From Terriglobia bacterium (GTDB lineage: Bacteria; Pseudomonadota; Alphaproteobacteria; Acetobacterales; Acetobacteraceae): DNA of 64,000 nucleotides. The notes under the pieces are model-generated. The model searched no databases, was not told the DNA's origin, and was given only the letters and a program-made list of their open reading frames with translations. The position numbers and the translations under genes were made by a program. This document shows, piece by piece, positions 21,278-33,800 of the stretch. Location: contig JAIMBF010000007.1 of assembly GCA_023511585.1 (NCBI GenBank), positions 1-64,000 of the forward strand, read 5' to 3'. Every line of letters begins with the position of its first letter. Within the stretch, counting starts at the first letter, position 1.

Positions 21278-22906
21278 TCAACACGCCGCAGCAAGCGCCC
21301 GCCCGCCGGAGATGCGCCATACGCGGTCCAGCCGTTCGATGCCGAGCAGGTGATGGGCGATCAGGATCACCGTGCGATCTTTCGCCACCTCGTTTAGGGT
21401 GAGCAGAAACGCCCGTTCGGTGTCCGCATCCAGGCCGCTGCAGGGTTCGTCCAAGATCAGGATCGGGGCGGGCGAAAGCAACGCGCGCGCCAATGCGAGC
21501 CGCCTGCCTTGGCCGCCGGAAAAGCGAAGCCCCTTTTCGCCGACCCAGGTATCCAGCCCATCGGGTAGGGTGCGGACGAATGCGCCGATTTGCGCTTGAT
21601 CGAGCGCCGCCCAAAGCGCTTGCTCGTCGGCGGCGGGGGCTGCGAGCAGAAGGTTGGCGCGGATCGTATCGTCGAAGAGATGCGTGTTTTGACTAAGCCA
21701 GCCGATGCGCGAGCGGACATCCGCCGCAGACAGGGCTGCGATGTCGACGCCGCCAAGCAGCACCCGGCCCGATTGCGGGGCGACGACTTTCAGCGCCAAT
21801 GCCGCAAGCGTCGATTTTCCGGCTCCCGACGGGCCGAGGATCGCAACACGCGAGCGCTCGGGGATCTCGAGCGAGAGCCCGTCAAACACCATCGGCCGAT
21901 CCGGCTGCCAACGGAAGCCGACCGCCTCGAAGCGCAACGTAAATCCGCGCGGAAGGGCGAGCGGATGCGGAGGATCCGCCACGGGGGCGGGGCTTTGAGC
22001 GGCTTCCAGAACGCGCTCGGCGGAAGCGGCGGCATAGCCGGCCAGCACGCCGGCACGCGGCAGGCCGGCAACCACTTCAAAACTCGCTACAATCAGAAAG
22101 GTGGCGGCGATAGCACCCAACGGCGCGGCGCCGGCAAGAGCGAGCACCGCCAGAAGTGCCGCCTGCCCGCAAAGAAACGCGGCCGCGGCCGCCCAGGCGC
22201 TGCGTTTGGCCACGCGCGCCTGCGCGGCGAACAATGCGTCCTCCCGCGCCTGGATTTGCGCCAGCATCCGCCCTTCCGCCCCGAAGGCGAGGACCTCTTT
22301 CATCCCGCTTAAGAGATCCAGGGCCGCAACGCGCAACGCCGATAACGCCCGGGTCAGATCGGAGCCTGCCGATTTCGCCTGGCGGGCGGCGAGGGCGGGC
22401 AGCACAAAGGCGGCGATGCCGAAGAGAACAACGACGGCGGCGGCCAGCAAAGGAAATGTGCGGCCGATGAAAATGCCAAGCGCCGGAAGAAGCAGCACCG
22501 CGCCGGCCAAGGGGATGAGAATGCGGAGATAAAGCCCGTCCAGCGCTTCCACGTCATTGACAAGGCGCGAAAGCACGTCTCCGGCGCGGCGGAAGCCGAG
22601 CCCACCGGCCGAACCTTTAGCGAGCCCGCGAAAGAACCAGACGCGCAGATCGGCCAGCGCGCGGAACGTGGCAGCGTGCGTGAGCAGCCGCTCGGCGTAG
22701 CGGAGAATGACGCGCAAGGCGCCCAGAGCGCGCAAAAGAAAAGGGGCGGCAAGCGTTCCCGCAACAATGGCGATCCCGACCGCCCGGCCCGATTGCACCA
22801 TCAGCGCCACGCCGGCGGCAACGGCAGCCATGGAGAGCGCCGCGCCGGCCAACAACCAGCCGGCCCGGCTTCGCCAAAGCGCGAGAATGCGCAGCAGCGG
22901 CTTCAA
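21278..22906 (-). CDS. cydC: Thiol reductant ABC exporter subunit CydC
   Basis: A 542-residue half-transporter with six membrane segments followed by an ATPase domain. It shows GPSGAGKSTLAALAL, RFSGGQGRRLALARAL and ILILDEPCSGLDADTE. RALGALRVILRYAERLLTHA is the CydC transmembrane signature. With CydD it exports cysteine and glutathione to the periplasm, needed for cytochrome bd and c-type cytochrome assembly. The start overlaps the CydD stop (ATGA). Confidence 0.95.
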   Translation of the reverse strand: MKPLLRILALWRSRAGWLLAGAALSMAAVAAGVALMVQSGRAVGIAIVAGTLAAPFLLRALGALRVILRYAERLLTHAATFRALADLRVWFFRGLAKGSAGGLGFRRAGDVLSRLVNDVEALDGLYLRILIPLAGAVLLLPALGIFIGRTFPLLAAAVVVLFGIAAFVLPALAARQAKSAGSDLTRALSALRVAALDLLSGMKEVLAFGAEGRMLAQIQAREDALFAAQARVAKRSAWAAAAAFLCGQAALLAVLALAGAAPLGAIAATFLIVASFEVVAGLPRAGVLAGYAAASAERVLEAAQSPAPVADPPHPLALPRGFTLRFEAVGFRWQPDRPMVFDGLSLEIPERSRVAILGPSGAGKSTLAALALKVVAPQSGRVLLGGVDIAALSAADVRSRIGWLSQNTHLFDDTIRANLLLAAPAADEQALWAALDQAQIGAFVRTLPDGLDTWVGEKGLRFSGGQGRRLALARALLSPAPILILDEPCSGLDADTERAFLLTLNEVAKDRTVILIAHHLLGIERLDRVWRISGGRALAAAC

Positions 22907-24603
22907 GCGACCCCTCGCGCCGCATCGGCCAAGGCGCGACCCCCATGCAGCTCCAGCCGCCTGCCGGGAAAAGCATGCGCCGCCGCGGAATGGCTTGCCA
23001 AAATCACGGTTCGCCCCGCCGCGAGGCGACGGAGGCTTTCCAGCACCTCGGCTTCGGTTGCGGGGTCGAGATGCGCGGTAGGCTCGTCCAACAGCAAAAC
23101 CGGCGCATTTTTCAAGAATGCACGCGCGATCGCCACGCGTTGCGCCTGCCCGCCGGAGAGCCCGTAGCCGCCCTCGCCCACCTCGGTGTCCAGCCCGCGC
23201 GGAAGGCTTGCCGCAAAGGCATCGACGCGCGCCGCCCGTGCGGCTTCCGCAACCTCGGCATCGGTGGCCTCGGGCCGGGCGAAACGGATATTCTCGCGCA
23301 AACTTCCGGCAAAGATCATCGGCTGCTGGCCGATCCAGGCCATAAGACGCATGCGTGCTTCCGGCGCAATGGAAAACAAATCCAAGCCGTTCAAGCTCAC
23401 CCGCCCGGAATCGGGGCGGATGAAACCGAGCAGCATTTCGATGACGGTGGATTTGCCCGCGCCCGAAGGCCCGATCAAAATCAAGGTTTCGCCCGCCGGC
23501 ACCCGAAAGCTCAGTCCGTTCAAAACCGGCCCCCGCGTTTTATCCCACGCGAAGTGCACGTTTTCGAAAGCGATGCTCACGCCGTGAGCGGAGATGGTAC
23601 GAATGGCGGGTTGCGGGCCGGCGTGCGAGGCTTCTTGCGGCGGCTCGGGGAGATTGACCAAGGCTGCGGCGGCGCCGGTGGCATGCAGCCGGTCTTGATA
23701 GGCCGCGGCATAAGCCCTGAGCGGCGCGAAAAACTCCGGCACCAGCAAAAGCGCGAACAGGGACGTGGAGAGCGAGACGCCGCCGCGCCCCGCCAGGGCG
23801 GCTGCGCCGTAATGCAGGGCGAGCACCACCAGCGCCCCGGCAAGCGCCAGATCCAGCACGCTCGAGGAAAGGAAAGCCACCCGAAGCACGCGCATGGTGC
23901 GGCGACGCAGTTCATCGGCGGCGGCGGCGAGAGCTTCCGCTTCGTGCTCGGCGCGTCCGGCCAGCACGATGGTGGCAATTCCCCGCACGCGATCGAGAAA
24001 CCGCGCCTGCAGGCGCGCGAGGGCCACGAATTGCCGGCGCGAGGCGACGGCGGCGCCGATGCCGGAAAGCGCCATGCCCACGGGGACGAAAAGCCCCGCA
24101 CCCAGCAGGGTTCCCCCGGCCCAAGGATCCGTCCAGAACGCCACCAGCAGCACCAGGGCGGGTCCCATCACGGCAAGCATGGCAGCCGGGACCCAGCGGG
24201 CGAAAAGTCCCTCCATAGCTTCGACTTGATCGGTGAGGACTGCGGTCAGTTCGCCCGAATGCCGTTGCCGCCCGAGCGCGGGACCCAATGCCAAGAGCCG
24301 ATGCAGCACCTGATGCCGAAGGCGACGCCGGCCGGCGATACCGGCGGAGACGGCGGCATTATCCGCCGCCACGCCAAGCGCTGCACGCAGCAGGGCCAAG
24401 AGGCCGAACCCCCCGAGCAGGACGCCAAGCGGCCCGGCATCGGCATGCAAGCCTCTGGCGAGCACTCTGGCCATCAGCCACGCCTGGCCGGTGGCTGCCG
24501 CGACGGAGGCAAGCCCGAAGGCGACCGCCGGCAAGGCGACCTTGCGCACGGCTTTTGCCTGTGCGCGCGTCCATGCTGCGATGTTTTGCTCCGGATTCTT
24601 CAT
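22903..24603 (-). CDS. cydD: Thiol reductant ABC exporter subunit CydD
   Basis: A 566-residue half-transporter: membrane domain (SGELTAVLTDQVEAMEGLFARW is typical of CydD) then ATPase with GPSGAGKSTVIEMLLGF, YGLSGGQAQRVAIARAF and VLLLDEPTAHLDPATE. The partner CydC follows at once. The cydAB oxidase genes are not in the window. Many c-type cytochromes here (three heme proteins or more) would need the reductant supply. Confidence 0.95.
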   Translation of the reverse strand: MKNPEQNIAAWTRAQAKAVRKVALPAVAFGLASVAAATGQAWLMARVLARGLHADAGPLGVLLGGFGLLALLRAALGVAADNAAVSAGIAGRRRLRHQVLHRLLALGPALGRQRHSGELTAVLTDQVEAMEGLFARWVPAAMLAVMGPALVLLVAFWTDPWAGGTLLGAGLFVPVGMALSGIGAAVASRRQFVALARLQARFLDRVRGIATIVLAGRAEHEAEALAAAADELRRRTMRVLRVAFLSSSVLDLALAGALVVLALHYGAAALAGRGGVSLSTSLFALLLVPEFFAPLRAYAAAYQDRLHATGAAAALVNLPEPPQEASHAGPQPAIRTISAHGVSIAFENVHFAWDKTRGPVLNGLSFRVPAGETLILIGPSGAGKSTVIEMLLGFIRPDSGRVSLNGLDLFSIAPEARMRLMAWIGQQPMIFAGSLRENIRFARPEATDAEVAEAARAARVDAFAASLPRGLDTEVGEGGYGLSGGQAQRVAIARAFLKNAPVLLLDEPTAHLDPATEAEVLESLRRLAAGRTVILASHSAAAHAFPGRRLELHGGRALADAARGVA

Positions 24604-24702: not shown

Positions 24703-25977
24703 TCAGCGGCCGGGCTCGTGCGGGCCAAGCGGCAGTCCTTGTTCCAATTGCGCGCGCACCCGCTTAATATCGCGCCGCTTCAGCGGGAACGGATAGGACG
24801 CAATATCGCTTGGCGGCGAATCCCCATAGGGCCGATCGCAAGCCGAAATATCCGCCGCTTCCTTGCCCGGGCATCCCGAGGTGCGAAACGCGGTGCCGGC
24901 ATCGATAATGGCTTGCAGCTCGTCTTGCGGGTAACCGAAATCGATCAGACGGCCGGCCTCGTCAAAGCGCATGCGTTCCAAGCGGTGGCCGCGATAGTCG
25001 ATCAGGTAACGCGCCAGCTGCACGCGCCGCCATTGCGGGCGCGGAACCGGGGGCAGGTGATCCATCAATGAGCCGCGCTCGGGGAAGAAGGCGAACATGT
25101 GGCTATGCCCGCCCATATCGCGGATGGTTTGCACTTGCGTCAGCACGTCGTAATCGGATTCCCCCATGCCGACGATGATGTGCGCACCGAACTTTTCCGG
25201 CCCGAAAATCTCTGCGGCGGCACGCAAAATCTCCCAATATTTCTGCCATGAGTGCGGCGAGGCAACGCCGCGCCCGCGCGTGCGGTCGAAAATTTCGGGG
25301 TTTGCCGCATCCAGCGCGACGGTGAAGATTTCCGCGCCCAAGTCTTTGAGTTCTTGAACATCTTGGCGTGTCATCGTCGTGGGGTTGGAGAGAATCGAAA
25401 CGGGAACGTGATGAATGCGCTCCACCCAACGGCGCAAGACAACCCGTGTATCGGCATCGGAATTCGGGTGCGTGATCATGCTGATACACATGCGGTGAAA
25501 ACGCCCGCCATCGCCGCCCGCTTCCATAATGTCCAGCACATCGTCGTAGGGAACGGCAGGCCAGTCCACGCGAATGAAGTTGCGATCGGCGTAATTGCGT
25601 TCGGCTTCGCGATGCCGTGCAAGGCCGCAATAGGCGCAATTGGCTCGGCAGCCTTCCGGATAGGTCAGCAACAAATTCAGGCATCGCGTGCAGCTCGTGC
25701 GATGCATCATGCCTTTCATAATGCCGAGCGTGATCGCGGCGGCGGTGGACATTTGCACGTAAGCCGGCGAGCGCATGGCCGGCGTGAGAATGTTGTTGTT
25801 CGGCAGATAAACGCCGTGCGGCGCGGCCGATTGCGCTTTGACACGCGCGCCGTTGCGCGCCTCAAGAGGCACCGGCGAAGGCACGCGCGGGCGCATGCTC
25901 TCGGCGTCGTTATAATCCCGCGGGGTTTTGTTGAGGAAATCGGGAACCGGATGGCGCGGCATATCCAAACAGCTCAT
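24703..25977 (-). CDS. BioB-like radical SAM protein, LipS1/LipS2-type candidate (longer partner)
   Basis: A 424-residue radical SAM enzyme. The cluster motif C110-x3-C114-x2-C117 sits in PEGCRANCAYCGLA. Extra cysteines at 96, 99, 369 and 380 (TSCTRC, RTSGCPG, ISACDRP) could bind an auxiliary iron-sulfur cluster, as sulfur-inserting enzymes need. SAM-binding phrases include MEAGGDGGRF and HIIVGMGESDYDV. GGAAGGAAG precedes the ATG at 25977. The neighbouring gene encodes a second BioB-like protein, as in the LipS1/LipS2 pair that makes lipoate on the sulfur-oxidation carrier protein. No lipoate-binding protein or sLpl ligase is in the window, so this assignment rests on the paired arrangement and the cysteines. 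An FO synthase or other BioB-like role remains possible. Confidence 0.6.
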   Translation of the reverse strand: MSCLDMPRHPVPDFLNKTPRDYNDAESMRPRVPSPVPLEARNGARVKAQSAAPHGVYLPNNNILTPAMRSPAYVQMSTAAAITLGIMKGMMHRTSCTRCLNLLLTYPEGCRANCAYCGLARHREAERNYADRNFIRVDWPAVPYDDVLDIMEAGGDGGRFHRMCISMITHPNSDADTRVVLRRWVERIHHVPVSILSNPTTMTRQDVQELKDLGAEIFTVALDAANPEIFDRTRGRGVASPHSWQKYWEILRAAAEIFGPEKFGAHIIVGMGESDYDVLTQVQTIRDMGGHSHMFAFFPERGSLMDHLPPVPRPQWRRVQLARYLIDYRGHRLERMRFDEAGRLIDFGYPQDELQAIIDAGTAFRTSGCPGKEAADISACDRPYGDSPPSDIASYPFPLKRRDIKRVRAQLEQGLPLGPHEPGR

Positions 25978-26001
25978 GGGACTTCCTTCCTTCGTTCTCT
26001 T

Positions 26002-27036
26002 TTACGCGGCACAGGCATGACGGCCGGTCAATCCATCCAACCCGATGGAGCAGCAAGCCGATTGCTGATCCACTTCCCGCCCGATGGCGCGGGCCAACGC
26101 CACCACGCCTTCCGCCGGATAGGCGATGCCGTCGAAACCCGCCATCACGGCATAGGCATCGGTGATGAGTTTGTGGGTCCCGCCCGGGCGTGCGCAGCCC
26201 AGTTGTACCGGCGCATGATGAATGCGCTTACGCGCGGCCACGAAAACCTCGGCCACCTGCTCGGGCGGCGGGACGGCAAACGGCTTATGCGGCGGGGCAT
26301 AGTGCGGCATGACGACAACCAAAACCAAGGCGGCGACCGGATAGCGCGCAATGATCTCAAGCGCTTTCATCTCGCCGAGCAAACGCCCGTAATGCAGCCC
26401 GATCACAATATGCGGCACGACATCCATCGAGGTGCGGCACAATGCCGCGAGCGATTCTTCAAAATCGGCAACCGTGCGATCGAGATGATAAACGTCGCGG
26501 ATGGTTTCTTCCGCACCGATCATATCCAGCATGGCCACATCGACGCCCGCTTCCGCCAGACGTTGCGCGCGCGGGAAATTGATCAACGCCGAGTGAACGG
26601 CGATGCGGAGATGCGGAAATTCCGCCTTCAGCGCGGCGATTGCCCCGGCATAACGGTCGTAAGGGACCTCGTTGCGGCGATTCGACCCGCCGGAGAGCAA
26701 AAACCCCCGCAGATCCTTGAGCCATACGAGGTCGCGCACTTTTCGGATAAGGTCTTCGGGGCTTTTGGCCGGAATCATCGGCTCCAGGATTTTCGCCTGG
26801 CAATGGTCGCACATCAACGCGCAGGCGCCGCCGGTGATAGAAAAGGCCGGGAAGTAATTCTTGCCGCCGCAGCCGCTGAGTTCCTCGCTCGCATACGCCC
26901 GGAACGTGGGGGTAAAGAAGCGTAACGGGCCGAGCGGGCGCTGTTTTGCTTCCGCTTCCAAGGCGGAGACCAAGGTTTCGTTCAGCGCGAGCGTGTCAAA
27001 CGGCTCGATAGCGCTTGCGATCTTCATCCAACCCAT
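26002..27036 (-). CDS. BioB-like radical SAM protein, LipS1/LipS2-type candidate (shorter partner)
   Basis: A 344-residue radical SAM enzyme with C72-x3-C76-x2-C79 in GGACALMCDHCQ. Additional cysteines at 56, 281, 328, 329 and 342 (SGCGGK, LGCARPGG, SACCSIG, HACAA) could ligate a second cluster. It is followed 24 bases later by the longer BioB-like gene. The two differ in length and cysteine pattern, as expected for complementary subunits. The start is at 27036 or the ATG at 27027; neither has a strong binding site. The divergent GATase-like gene begins 83 bases upstream on the other strand, so the three genes share a promoter region. Confidence 0.6.
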   Translation of the reverse strand: MGWMKIASAIEPFDTLALNETLVSALEAEAKQRPLGPLRFFTPTFRAYASEELSGCGGKNYFPAFSITGGACALMCDHCQAKILEPMIPAKSPEDLIRKVRDLVWLKDLRGFLLSGGSNRRNEVPYDRYAGAIAALKAEFPHLRIAVHSALINFPRAQRLAEAGVDVAMLDMIGAEETIRDVYHLDRTVADFEESLAALCRTSMDVVPHIVIGLHYGRLLGEMKALEIIARYPVAALVLVVVMPHYAPPHKPFAVPPPEQVAEVFVAARKRIHHAPVQLGCARPGGTHKLITDAYAVMAGFDGIAYPAEGVVALARAIGREVDQQSACCSIGLDGLTGRHACAA

Positions 27037-27119
27037 TTCGGAAGTTTGCCCTTATATGATAGATCAGTCAAACAAGAACTGCGCTTGGCGCGGAAGGCCG
27101 GAACGGCCGAGGAGGGGCG

Positions 27120-27812
27120 GTGCGAACGCTTTGCGTGATCCAACATATCGAGGTGGAATTTCTCGGGCTGATGGAAGACCATTTGGAGAGCCGGAACATC
27201 CGCTTTCGCTACGTTCGGCCATTTACGGAAGGCACGAAGATTCCCGCCTCTCCCGAAGACTTCGCAGGGCTCGTTCTGCTGGGTGCGGGGCCTTACGGGG
27301 TGGTGAGCGGGCATATTCTGCCTTCGCTTGGCGCGGAGCTGCGCCTGGCCCGCGCTTTCCTGAACGCCGAGCTGCCGGTGATCGGGGTGGAGCTTGGCGC
27401 CGTCATTTTGGCGGTTGCGGCAGGAGGCGGGGCCGAGGAAGCGCCGCTTCGGCTTTGGGTTGACAGGGCCGCGCGCACGGATGCCGAGGCGCTGGGCGGC
27501 TGGCTTCCGGAGCGGTTTCCGTTTGCCGCTTATCTGCGCGATCGGCCGGTGCCGGGGGCGGGCCTTGCCGTGCTTGCGCGTGACCAGGCCGGAGAGCCGG
27601 TGGTGTTTGCCGCGGGTGAACGCGCCTTCGGCTTTTTGGGCCATCCGGGCATGAAGCGCGGAATGGCCGAGGATGTGGCGATGGCCTTCGAGGAAACCCC
27701 CGAGAACCTGGCCGCGGGGCTGGAGGCGCTCGCGGAGGTGCAAGCGGAGATTGCGCACGTGCTGAGCCCGATGATGGTGGGTCTTATTCAACGCTGCGGG
27801 CTGATGGATTAG
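27120..27812 (+). CDS. Glutamine-amidotransferase-fold protein lacking the catalytic cysteine
   Basis: A 230-residue class I GATase-like protein. The fold is clear: an N-terminal strand, then LLGAGPYGVVSGHILP, the nucleophile elbow PVIGVELGAVILA and GFLGHPGMKRG. The elbow residue that should be Cys is Glu91, and the C-terminal HPE triad element reads His175-Pro176-Gly177. Hydrolysis of glutamine should therefore be impossible. The start is GTG at 27120 with GAGGAGG upstream. It is divergent from the two radical SAM genes. I infer a structural or binding role in that pathway; from memory, amidotransferase-like genes also occur in some bacterial sulfur-oxidation/lipoate clusters. Confidence 0.75.
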   Translation: MRTLCVIQHIEVEFLGLMEDHLESRNIRFRYVRPFTEGTKIPASPEDFAGLVLLGAGPYGVVSGHILPSLGAELRLARAFLNAELPVIGVELGAVILAVAAGGGAEEAPLRLWVDRAARTDAEALGGWLPERFPFAAYLRDRPVPGAGLAVLARDQAGEPVVFAAGERAFGFLGHPGMKRGMAEDVAMAFEETPENLAAGLEALAEVQAEIAHVLSPMMVGLIQRCGLMD

Positions 27813-28503: not shown

Positions 28504-30831
28504 TTACGCGGCGCGTGCGGTTTGCAGGGCTTGCCAGACGCGCTCGGGCGTTGCCGGCATGTCCAGATCCGTCACGCCATCTTCGGCCAAAGCGTCGATA
28601 ATGGCGTTGATCACCGCAGGCGGGCTACCCACGGCGCCTGCTTCGCCCGCGCCTTTCACGCCAAGCGGGTTGCTTTTGCACGGCACTTCGATGAGCTCCA
28701 CTTCGATGTCCGGCACGTCCGCCGCGCGCGGCAGAGCGTAATCCATGAAGCTTCCCGTGATCAGCTGGCCGGAAGCCGGATCGTAAACGGTATGCTCGAA
28801 GACGGCTTGCCCGATTCCCTGTGTCACGCCGCCCTGCACTTGGCCGCGCACAATCAGCGGGTTAATGGCTTTGCCGATGTCGTCGCAAACCGCGTAACGC
28901 ACGATTTCCACCTTGCCGGTTTCGGGATCCACTTCGACTTCGGCCATATGGCAACCGTTCGGAAAGGTATGCTTTTCGATCGGCGCGACCTCGGCGGCAT
29001 CCAAAAGCGTGGCCGATTCTCCGGCAGCGAGGCGTTTGCGCTGCGTCTCGGCAAGCGCAAGAATGTCGATGCCGCGATCGGTGCCGACAATGGAAAATCT
29101 TCCGTTTTCGAAGACGATATCCGCGGGTGAGGCCTCCAGGACTTCCGAGGCCGCCTTTTTGCCTTTCTCGATAACGGTTGCGGCGGTGAGCAGAATGGCC
29201 TGGCCTTCGGAATAAAGGCTGCGCGCCCCGCCGGTGCCGCCGCCTTCGGGGATGGTATCCGTATCCCCTTGCTTGATGCGCACTTTCTCGGCATCGATGC
29301 CGAGTTCATTGCAAATCAGCATGACATAGGCCGTTTCGTGCCCTTGCCCGGTTGATTGCGTGCCGACATAGACATCCACATAACCATCCTCGGCAAAGCG
29401 AATTTCCGCGCGCTCGGAGGGGGCTCCGCCGGTCGCCTCGAGGTAATAGGACATGCCGATGCCGCGCCGCTTTCCGCGCCGCCGCGCTTCCGCTTGCCGG
29501 GCGGGAAATCCGGCGTAATCCATTTTCTTGAGCGCGGCCTCGAAGACGAAGGGGAAATTGCCGCTGTCGTAGACTTGCCCCATGGCGGAAGTCCACGGCA
29601 TCGCGCTTTCCGGCACCATGTTTTTGCGGCGCAATTCGGCGCGATCGATTTTGAGCTCGCGCGCGGCTTGGTCGATCAACCGCTCGACCAAATAATTGCT
29701 TTCCGGCCGCCCGGCTCCGCGATAGGCATCCACCGGAACGGTGTTGGTGAATACGCCGATCACGTTCGCATAGACCGCTTGGAAACGATACACACTGGCA
29801 AGCACTTTGGTGCCGGCAAGGGTCGGAATAAACGGTGCGAAGGTGGAAAGATAGGCGCCCATATCGGCAAAATTGCGCGTGCGCAAAGCGAGGAAGTTGC
29901 CGTCTTTGTCCAGGGCGAGTTCGGCCTCGGTGAGGTTGGCGCGGCCTTGCGTATCGGAGAGAAACGCCTCGCTTCTCTCGGAGCTCCATTTCACCGGGCG
30001 CCCGAGCTTGCGCGCGGCATAACATGTCAACGCATGTTCGGCGTAGAGAAAGATTTTCATGCCGAACCCGCCGCCGACATCGGGCGTAATGATGCGGAAT
30101 TTGTCTTTATCGGTTTTGAAGATCGCTTCCGCCAAAAGATCTTTGAGCAACCATCCGCCTTGGGTGTTGGTGGTGAGCGTCCATCTTCCGTTTGCCGGGT
30201 TGTATTCGGCCAATGCGGCGCGCGGTTCCATGCTGGCCACCACGACGCGGTTGTTGACCACTTTCAAGCGCGTGACATGCGCGGCTTGCGCGAACAGCGC
30301 ATCCACTTTTGCTTTGTCGCCGACTTGCCAATCAAAACAAATATTGCGCGGCGCGTTCGGCCAGACTTGCGGTTGGCCGGGTTCCGTTGCGGTGGCAAGA
30401 TCGGTGACGGCGGGAAGAACCTCGTAGTCCACGACAACGGCTTCCGCGGCATCACGCGCTTTTTGCAGGGTTTCCGCCACCACGAGTGCGACCGGATCGC
30501 CCACATGGCGCACGAAACCATCGGCGAGAACCGGATGCGGCGGCATGACGCTTTTGGAGCCGTCGCGATTTTTCAGCGGCACGGCGCACGGCAGGGTGCC
30601 GATATTGTCCGCCGCCAAATCCGCGTGCGTGTAAACGGCCGCCACCCCCGGCATCGCTTTTGCGGCAGCGGTATCGATGCTGCGGATTCGCGCAGCGGCA
30701 TGGGGGCTGCGCAAAATGAACGCCCTCAGCATGCCGGGCGGGGCATAGTCGTCGGTGTAGCGGCCGTTGCCTTTCAAGAGCCGCGGATCTTCCACGCGCG
30801 GTACCGGCTGAGCAAGACCGAATTTCGTCAT
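28504..30831 (-). CDS. Molybdenum hydroxylase large subunit, CoxL form II-like
   Basis: A 775-residue xanthine-oxidase-family molybdopterin subunit. Landmarks are QPVPRVEDPRLLKGNGRYTDD, HAAARIRSID, GGFGMKIFLYAEH and, at about residue 368, AYRGAGRPESNYLVERLID. The AYRGAGR loop is the form II pattern; true aerobic CO dehydrogenases carry a Cys there. The start at 30831 follows GGAGAG; the frame remains open upstream through the RND gene, which is not part of it. The medium (FAD) and small (2Fe-2S) subunits that normally accompany it are missing. The substrate is therefore unknown, perhaps an aldehyde or N-heterocycle. Confidence 0.9.
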   Translation of the reverse strand: MTKFGLAQPVPRVEDPRLLKGNGRYTDDYAPPGMLRAFILRSPHAAARIRSIDTAAAKAMPGVAAVYTHADLAADNIGTLPCAVPLKNRDGSKSVMPPHPVLADGFVRHVGDPVALVVAETLQKARDAAEAVVVDYEVLPAVTDLATATEPGQPQVWPNAPRNICFDWQVGDKAKVDALFAQAAHVTRLKVVNNRVVVASMEPRAALAEYNPANGRWTLTTNTQGGWLLKDLLAEAIFKTDKDKFRIITPDVGGGFGMKIFLYAEHALTCYAARKLGRPVKWSSERSEAFLSDTQGRANLTEAELALDKDGNFLALRTRNFADMGAYLSTFAPFIPTLAGTKVLASVYRFQAVYANVIGVFTNTVPVDAYRGAGRPESNYLVERLIDQAARELKIDRAELRRKNMVPESAMPWTSAMGQVYDSGNFPFVFEAALKKMDYAGFPARQAEARRRGKRRGIGMSYYLEATGGAPSERAEIRFAEDGYVDVYVGTQSTGQGHETAYVMLICNELGIDAEKVRIKQGDTDTIPEGGGTGGARSLYSEGQAILLTAATVIEKGKKAASEVLEASPADIVFENGRFSIVGTDRGIDILALAETQRKRLAAGESATLLDAAEVAPIEKHTFPNGCHMAEVEVDPETGKVEIVRYAVCDDIGKAINPLIVRGQVQGGVTQGIGQAVFEHTVYDPASGQLITGSFMDYALPRAADVPDIEVELIEVPCKSNPLGVKGAGEAGAVGSPPAVINAIIDALAEDGVTDLDMPATPERVWQALQTARAA

Positions 30832-30887
30832 GAAGACACTCTCCCGTTCGTCCCAAACGATCTCTGTAATGGTCCGTTTCTGGTCAC

Positions 30888-33800
30888 TTAGTCCCCGAGT
30901 GTGTGGACATCCTCCCGCACCCGCTCGTGCTTGCGCGCGCGCCGGCTTACGCGCTCGCGCAGCGATTGGAATGTGGCATAAAGCATGGGAATAAGAAAGA
31001 TGCCGATGGCGCTTGCCGCAATCATGCCGCCGAAAACGGCCGTGCCGACACCGCGGCGGCTGAGCATGGCGGCGCCGTGGGCGAAGACGAGCGGCACCAG
31101 ACCGAAGATAAAAGCAATCGAGGTCATCATCACCGCCCGAAAGCGCATCTCCGCGCCGAGCGCCGCGGCTTCGCGAATCGGCAGCCCTGCTTCGCGTTGT
31201 TCCTTGGCGAATTCGACAATGAGAATCCCGTTTTTGGCGGCCAGCGCGATCAAGACAACCATGCCGATTTCGCCGTAAAGATCCAGCGAAAGGCCGGAAA
31301 TCAGCACCGCCACATACGAGCCGCAAATGCCGACGGTGACCGAAAGCAGCACGGGGATCGGAATGATCCAGCTTTCATAAAGCGCGACCAGAAAAAGATA
31401 AGCGAACAGAACCGCAAGGCTGAGGATGCCGAGCGTTTGCCCCGCCGCCAGTTCCTCCTGATAGGCGGTGCCCGTCCATTCATAGCCGTAGCCCTGCGGC
31501 AGGGTTTTTGCGGAGATTTCCTCCATTGCGGCAAGCGCGGTGCCCGAGGAGACGCCCGGGGCCGGGCTGCCTTGAATGGCGATCGCACGATAGTTGTTAT
31601 AACGCACGATCACCTGCGGCCCCTGGACGATGCGCATGCTGGCAATGGAGCGCATCGGCACCATTTGGCCATCTTTATTGCGGACATAGATCTGCCAAAT
31701 ATTCTCGATGTCGGAACGGTCTTTCGCCTCTCCTTCGAGATTGACCTGCCAGACGCGGCCGAGCATATTGAAGTCGTTGACATAAATGCCGCCGAGCGTT
31801 GCTTGCAAGGCAACGAAGACATCGGCCATATTCAGGCCGAGCGCCTGCGCCTTTTCCCGATCGATATCGAGATAGATGGAGGGGGTGGACGCGGTAAAGG
31901 TGGAAAAGACGCGCGCGAGCCTGGGGTCTTGGTTGGCGTTGGCAATCAACCCTCGCATGACTGCCCCGATATCGGCGGGATCTTGGCCTTCGAGGCCTTC
32001 CAATTCGTATTCGAACCCCCCAGAGGTCGAAAGCCCGATAATGGGCGGAAGGTTGAACGGAAACACCACGGCAGAGCGGATCTGCTGCGCCATTCCGAAG
32101 GCTTTGTGAATCAAGGCCTGTGCCATGTCTTCCATCTTCGGGCGTTCGGCAAAGGGTTTCAGGCGCAAGACCAGAAAGGCCGCGTTCGGTTCATAGGCTT
32201 GATCGAGCAGAGAGAAGCCCAGAATGGAAAGCACGTCGGAAATTTGCGGCATTTTCCGAAACATCGCTTCCACCTGCTTCACCGCGGCAGCCGTGCGCGG
32301 CAGCGAGGCGCCGTCGGGAAGCTGCACCAGCGCAAAGAATGCGCCTTGGTCTTCTTCCGGCAAAAAGCCGGTGGGCGTACGATACGCAAGCCCGACAAGG
32401 CCGACGCCGAAGGCAAGCACCAGAACCACCGCAACCGCGGCCACGCGCAGCAACCGCTGCACCGCCCTCGCATAGCCGCTGCGCACGCTATCGATGCCGC
32501 GCAGCACATAGGCCATAAGGCCACGCCGCACGCCGGTATGGCGCAAAAAGACCGCGCAGAGCGCCGGCGAAAGCGTGAGCGCGTTGATCGCCGAAATGAC
32601 CATGGCGGCGCTGATGGTTACCGCGAATTGGCGGAACAGCGTTCCGGAAAGGCCCGGAAGAAAAGCAATCGGTACGAAGACGGACAGCAAAACCAGCGAA
32701 ATCGCAATGATCGGACCGGTGATCTGGCGCATGGCAAGCTTCGTGGCTTCCGCGGGTGAAAGCTCGGGATGTTCGCTCATGACGCGCTCGACATTTTCCA
32801 CCACCACGATCGCGTCGTCGACGACGATGCCGATGGCCACCACCATGGCCAGCAAAGAGACCGTGTTGGCGCTGTAACCCACACTGAGCAGCACGGCAAA
32901 CGTGCCGACCAAGCTGACCGGCACGGCAACCGCCGGAATGATGGTGGCGCGCACGCTTCCCAGAAACAGAAAGACGACCAACACCACCAAAGCAAACGCT
33001 TCCGCCAAGGTGCGTATGACTTCGTGGATTGTATCGTTGATGAAGGTGGTGCTGTCATACATCACCTTCGCGGTAAGGCCCGGCGGAAAGCGCTTCTCCA
33101 AGCGTGCCAAAGTTTCCCGCAATGCTTTCGCCGTCTGCACGGCATTCGCCCCGGGCGCGAGATAGGTGCCGATCGGCACTGCAGGTTGGCCGTTGAGGCG
33201 GCTTTCGCTATCCTCGCTTTTCGCGCCGAGCTCCACGCGGGCAACCTCGCGCAAGCGCAGCAAAGACCCATCCGGGTTTGCCCGCAGCACGATGTTGCCG
33301 AACTCTTCGGGCGTTTGCAGTCTGCCTTTGGTTTGCAGGTTGAGTTGGAATTGCTGTTCGGGGCTGATCGGCCGCGCCCCGATGCGCCCGACCGGAGCCT
33401 CGACGTTTTGCGCTTGGATTGCGGCGATGACGTCGGACGGAGAGAGATTAAGGCTTACCAGCCGCTGAATATCGAACCATATGCGCATCGAATAATTCAT
33501 CTGCGCAAATAATCTCGCTTGGCCGATGCCGGGAACGCGCGCGATGGCATCGAGCACGTGCACGATGACGTAGTTCGTTATGTAAAGCGGATCTTGTTTT
33601 CCGTTCGTCGAATAGAATGCGATGAATTGCAGCACGGAGACCGAACGTTTTTGCACCGTGATGCCTTCTTGCTGGACTTCCGGCGGCAGTTCCGCAAGTG
33701 TTGTTTGCACGCGGTTGTTGACATTAACGGTATCGATATTGGGATCCGTCCCGAGCGCGAAGGTGACGGAAAGATTGTAGCTTCCATCGTTGCCGCTCGT

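Follow-up and report, generated by a model that had tools for sequence, protein, structure and literature searches.

The locus under study occupies positions 24703-27812 of the window, i.e., of the whole 64,000-nucleotide stretch of DNA that was analyzed. It comprises two adjacent radical-SAM open reading frames (ORFs) and one divergently transcribed ORF with a class I amidotransferase fold (Table 1). The ORFs were found exactly where the sequence-only reading had placed a pair of 424- and 344-residue radical SAM genes divergent from a GATase-fold gene, and the Cx3Cx2C motif and further cysteines ascribed to both proteins were present. Scans for sigma-70 promoters and terminators and an Rfam search around the lipS2, lipS1 and lipX locus gave nothing above chance. 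CydDC was considered as a functional partner of LipS2 and dropped, since cydD adjoins lipS2 in none of 43 relatives; cydD and cydC are probably mere neighbors. A molybdenum hydroxylase large subunit of the glyceraldehyde/CO/xanthine dehydrogenase family is encoded at 28504-31326 on the minus strand of the window; it scored under all equivalog cut-offs listed.

Table 1. Coordinates and key residues of the lipS2, lipS1 and lipX locus and of the adjoining cyd genes.
Feature	Coordinates	Strand	Description
cydC	21278..22906	-	overlaps end of cydD; TIGR02868 above cut-off
cydD	22903..24603	-	~100 bp downstream of lipS2, same strand; TIGR02857 above cut-off
lipS2	24703..25977	-	424 aa; radical SAM lipoyl synthase subunit; NCBIfam LipS2, 2.3e-57
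lipS2 residues			radical-SAM (RS) Cys 110/114/117; auxiliary-cluster Cys 164/369/380
lipS1	26002..27036	-	344 aa; radical SAM lipoyl synthase subunit; NCBIfam LipS1, 4.6e-58
lipS1 residues			RS Cys 72/76/79; His209; auxiliary Cys 281/328/329
imperfect inverted repeat CTTATATGATAGATCAGTCAAACAAG	27051..27076	.	lipX/lipS1 divergent promoter; putative sHdrR/SoxR-type (ArsR) operator
lipX	27120..27812	+	230 aa; class I glutamine-amidotransferase fold, Glu91 replacing nucleophile Cys

Family assignment and active-site residues of the radical SAM pair

Both radical SAM proteins matched Pfam Radical_SAM above the gathering score. Among the NCBIfam models, LipS2 ranked first for the 424-residue protein (194.7 bits, below the equivalog cut-off of 270), and LipS1 was the sole match of the 344-residue protein (196.9 bits, below the cut-off of 230). 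LipS1 fell short of its cut-off in all ten genomes that had it, this genome included, among 385 genomes drawn from the class, which indicates that the cut-off is too strict for the clade. A score threshold is in any case not a defining biological feature. In alignment A1, composed of eight LipS2 sequences including that of the window, LipS2 was the only model matched by all eight, and the best E-value (1.3e-59) was only about two orders of magnitude better than that of the window protein. The biotin synthase and MSMEG_0568-type radical SAM profiles gave 23-31 bits on LipS2, with bioB at 23.5 bits against a cut-off of 225.

Searches against solved structures yielded no match, either with phmmer for LipS2 and LipS1 or with the LipS2 profile. 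The AlphaFold model of LipS2 built from eight sequences reached a pLDDT of 65.9 and was poor around the clusters; Foldseek with the core of this medium-confidence model placed BioB (8vdw) first and lipoyl synthases next.

Mutagenesis in Thermococcus kodakarensis mapped the radical-SAM cysteines together with the auxiliary residues C230, C276 and C277 with H159 of LipS1, and C85, C276 and C279 of LipS2 (PMC9585515). Each of the radical-SAM and auxiliary-cluster cysteines mapped in this way can be matched to a cysteine of LipS1 or LipS2 in the window, assigned by motif and spacing and not by alignment with the archaeal sequences. The Cx3Cx2C motif is common to both organisms. In LipS1, the His, one Cys and the CC pair are nearly equally spaced, the key-residue intervals being 130/72/47/1 in the window and 125/71/46/1 in T. 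kodakarensis. The LipS2 proteins differ in two respects. The last two auxiliary cysteines form Cx10C in the window and Cx2C in T. kodakarensis; the wider spacing (SGCPGK....SACDRPYG in the window) is common to all proteobacterial LipS2 seen and not peculiar to this genome. The first RS Cys is residue 110 instead of 39, so that LipS2 of the window is extended at the N terminus by approximately 70 residues relative to the archaeal protein. The radical-SAM and first auxiliary motifs of LipS2 were kept in 80 of 81 sequences, and the auxiliary triad was conserved among the relatives. The LipS1 residues were likewise conserved, although the motif count for LipS1 missed some sequences that were truncated or had variant letters at the positions searched. 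Canonical LipA makes the same product as one polypeptide, whose auxiliary motif differs (Cx4Cx5C, PMC9585515), and LipA of this genome scored only 17.7 bits against the LipS2 model.

LipS1 and LipS2 are each encoded by a single-copy gene and form the only such pair in the genome. Judged by profiles, key residues and the gene order of relatives, which agree, the two genes, in what would be a sulfur-oxidizing alphaproteobacterium, are almost certainly orthologues of the bacterial sHdr-type lipS2 and lipS1; the first look at the sequence had likened them to LipS1/LipS2.

Gene order in relatives and dispersed partner genes

A scan of genome contigs gave 438 relatives of LipS2, of which the best 80 were examined. 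The window LipS2 was 67-84% identical to these proteins, and most of them had the same lipoate/sHdr neighbors; such conservation with common neighbors is far beyond chance. The usual order was lipS1-lipT-lipS2-slpl(AB), often with lipX, dsrE, shdrC1B1A-hyp-C2B2 and lbpA. Flanks of 3.5 kb or more on either side of lipS2 were available at 43 loci; LipS1 was encoded nearby in 41 of these, sLpl in 40, LipT in 38 and LipX in 29, and sHdr/DsrE/LbpA genes occurred at 35. The closest relatives, several of which came from acid habitats or were Acetobacteraceae-like, have lbpA, shdrB2C2-hyp-A-B1-C1, dsrE and lipX running in one direction, opposite to lipS1, lipT, lipS2 and slpl(AB). The window retains exactly the middle of this cluster, with lipX divergent from lipS1, plus lipS2. 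In a quick LipS2 tree, the window protein and eight relatives (support 92, below the mark of 95) lay within a well supported group of 25.

Several relatives deviated from the common layout. In one genus (L032-L034 and L040-L042, in G414, G337 and G243), an open frame of ~715 codons spans LipS1 and LipT and appears to be a natural fusion. Hyphomicrobium sp. CS1BSMeth3 and its relatives have LipS2 without LipS1, LipT or ligase within 10 kb on each side (L097, L106); the same held for L120 of this group, on a short contig. In Acidicaldus organivorans (L065), the lipT and slpl(AB) matches were each broken in two, which points to frameshifts or errors of assembly. G020 (L005/L023) has a divergent LipS1-LipS2 pair (48% and 60%) with no sLpl or LipT nearby and an in-frame TGA reported in the LipS1 match.

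The absence of a carrier, Hdr or ligase gene asserted in the sequence-only reading stood for the identified neighborhood genes and failed genome-wide: the search for lbpA, sLpl(AB) and sHdr genes that it had called for found all of them on other contigs of the assembly (3.14 Mb, 96% complete, 0.3% contamination). Contig C163 encodes a LipT-like FAD oxidoreductase and, immediately after it, a lipoate ligase of 361 residues that matches LplA and LplB, i.e., lipT-slpl(AB). Contig C128 encodes an ArsR regulator with two cysteines, a TusA-like ORF, DsrE2 (which passes its NCBIfam threshold), a GcvH-like LbpA whose lysine motif is VESGKW, HdrB2, HdrC2, a conserved hypothetical protein, HdrA, HdrB1, HdrC1 and a second DsrE. 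Both groups lie away from contig ends. Tetranucleotide agreement of the contigs was 0.91-0.97 (0.93-0.97 for the window, C128 and C163, higher than with contigs of relatives), compared with 0.68-0.90 to other genomes, and most partner genes were closest to one small set of relatives (e.g., L043, L046, L048 and L051). The partnership with sLpl(AB), LipT, LbpA and sHdr was present within the genome itself, and in relatives the genes are linked. The description of the pair as an unlinked copy proved apt; it is the only one in the genome. At a separate locus (L012, G000:C142, ~26.7 kb), a further LplA-family gene stands beside a short 2-oxoacid dehydrogenase E2-like acyltransferase with no obvious lipoyl domain.

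Canonical LipA (C17), LipB and canonical GcvH are also encoded in the genome. LipA and LipB without a related carrier had been named in advance as evidence against the pair; here they are accompanied by LbpA within the sHdr cluster. The co-existence of both lipoylation pathways fits the reported finding that LbpA escapes modification by the Escherichia coli and Bacillus subtilis lipoylation machineries (PMC10332631).

The same set of lipS1, lipT, lipS2, slpl(AB) and lipX with shdr-lbpA is known from Hyphomicrobium denitrificans and Thioalkalivibrio sp. K90mix (Tanabe et al. 2023, PMC10332631), and most relatives share the order lipS1-lipT-lipS2-slpl(AB)-lipX with H. denitrificans. In contrast to these organisms, lipT-slpl and shdr-lbpA lie on other contigs here. 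The divergence of lipX from lipS1 is a further difference from H. denitrificans, one that the nearest relatives also show.

LipX and the shared inverted repeat

The third gene of the locus corresponds to the published lipX, described as encoding a putative glutamine amidotransferase and located after slpl(AB) in H. denitrificans (PMC10332631). In relatives, lipX was found beside lipS/slpl or dsrE-shdr. The AlphaFold2 model of LipX had a pLDDT of 95.7, with 1o1y, 8khs and 3m3p as the best Foldseek matches, and the profile of 34 LipX proteins retrieved class I amidotransferases among the solved structures (best 9xfs, 1o1y and 3m3p). The adjoining position and the fold agree with the published LipX; the present analysis adds that the nucleophile Cys of the GxCxG elbow is absent in all 34 proteins (alignment A2, the window's and 33 relatives). 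The Cys position of GICLGAQ is occupied by Gly in most of them and by Glu91 in this genome (GVELGAV), while His175 is retained. Glutamine hydrolysis by the usual mechanism is impossible without the nucleophile; on its sequence LipX is a pseudo-amidotransferase, as the sequence-only reading had it. One might guess at a binding or scaffolding role.

The 83-bp gap between lipX and lipS1 contains the repeat listed in Table 1. A related inverted repeat with perfect 10-bp arms, CTTATATGATCATCATATCATATAAG, was found in the dsrE-shdr promoter on C128 (14471-14496). Genome-wide, no third site with at most one mismatch to the pattern derived from both sites was detected, nor was a similar repeat seen before lipT-slpl on C163. 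The pattern was built when both sites were already known, hence Markov resampling of the gap is the weightier test: none of 20000 random versions matched the C128 site equally well. The repeat common to the shdr and lipX/lipS1 promoters ties the scattered pieces of the cluster together. Two repressors of the ArsR type, sHdrR and SoxR, are known to bind ahead of lipS1 and dsrE3C in H. denitrificans (PMC12423496, PMC10451225), and a regulator of this kind probably acts at the two repeats in this genome, which would make them operators. No mention of the missing Cys of LipX or of the shared repeat was found in the cited pathway literature. A tentative proposal, which we consider somewhat doubtful as a whole, is that LipX is a conserved dead amidotransferase serving LipS1/LipS2-sLpl(AB) as a scaffold, substrate-binding or regulatory partner, and that the shared operator unites a scattered regulon for lipoate assembly and sulfur oxidation in this lineage.

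A probable sLpl(AB)-LipS1/S2 pathway with dispersed genes

The family assignment, the key residues, the partner genes in the genome, the gene order of relatives and the shared repeat, taken together, argue with a probability of about 95% that the pair is the LipS1/LipS2 lipoyl synthase of the sLpl(AB)-LipS1/S2 pathway, with a role in dissimilatory sulfur oxidation, and that its gene cluster has been dispersed. Weighing against this reading are the NCBIfam scores below the cut-offs, the Cx10C spacing in LipS2, the lack of linkage to ligase and carrier, and the missing repeat before lipT-slpl. The bacterial pathway was proven in Thioalkalivibrio and Hyphomicrobium (PMC10332631); catalysis, substrate, electron donor and regulation are inferred for the present genes. 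sLpl(AB) would load octanoate on the lipoyl lysine of LbpA. By analogy, LipS2 would insert the first sulfur at C8 and LipS1 the second at C6, each drawing on SAM for the radical chemistry and taking the sulfur from an auxiliary [4Fe-4S] cluster, with electrons probably coming from LipT; holo-LbpA would then function in the sHdr system. An ancestral divergent cluster (shdr-lbpA / dsrE / lipX on one side, lipS1-lipT-lipS2-slpl on the other) has probably been split over three places, and the LipS1/LipS2 pair is unlinked because of this scattering. The operator-like repeat probably lets a single regulator control lipX, lipS1-lipS2 and shdr.

The different sulfur-inserting or methylthiolating pathway envisaged as an alternative in the sequence-only reading did not gain support. 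A pair derived from LipS1/S2 that inserts sulfur or methylthio groups into another substrate, with no tie to lipoate, could account for the lack of linkage to ligase and carrier and for the scores below the NCBIfam cut-offs, all the more as LipA and LipB are available for general lipoylation. We nevertheless regard it as very improbable: the genome's only LipS1/LipS2 would be required by LbpA, sLpl(AB), LipT and sHdr, none of which is missing, the active-site residues are all kept, and the inverted repeat is shared with the shdr promoter. Still less credible is a decayed remnant, in which the break-up of the cluster reflects an ongoing loss of function; the spread of the genes over three contigs, unlike in close relatives, would suit it, but the genes are all open and full length with intact motifs and high identity to their orthologues, and the repeat has been retained. 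Membership in a known single-protein family (BioB, CofG/CofH, HmdB, HydE or MSMEG_0568-type radical SAM), to which the BioB hit in Foldseek and the weak TIGR04043 and bioB matches might point, was refuted by the lead of the LipS2 profile over bioB (171 bits) and TIGR04043 (163 bits), by the exclusive LipS1 match of the partner protein and by the gene context of the relatives.

The pair is a clean representative of an already known pathway, ordinary except for the unusual layout of its genes. As the locus shows, the LipS1/S2 pathway is recognizable even where its genes are unlinked, and both the window pair and the other alphaproteobacterial LipS1 tested are missed by the NCBIfam cut-offs now in use. 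A LipX without the catalytic Cys puts the published label of putative glutamine amidotransferase in doubt and raises the question of its role.
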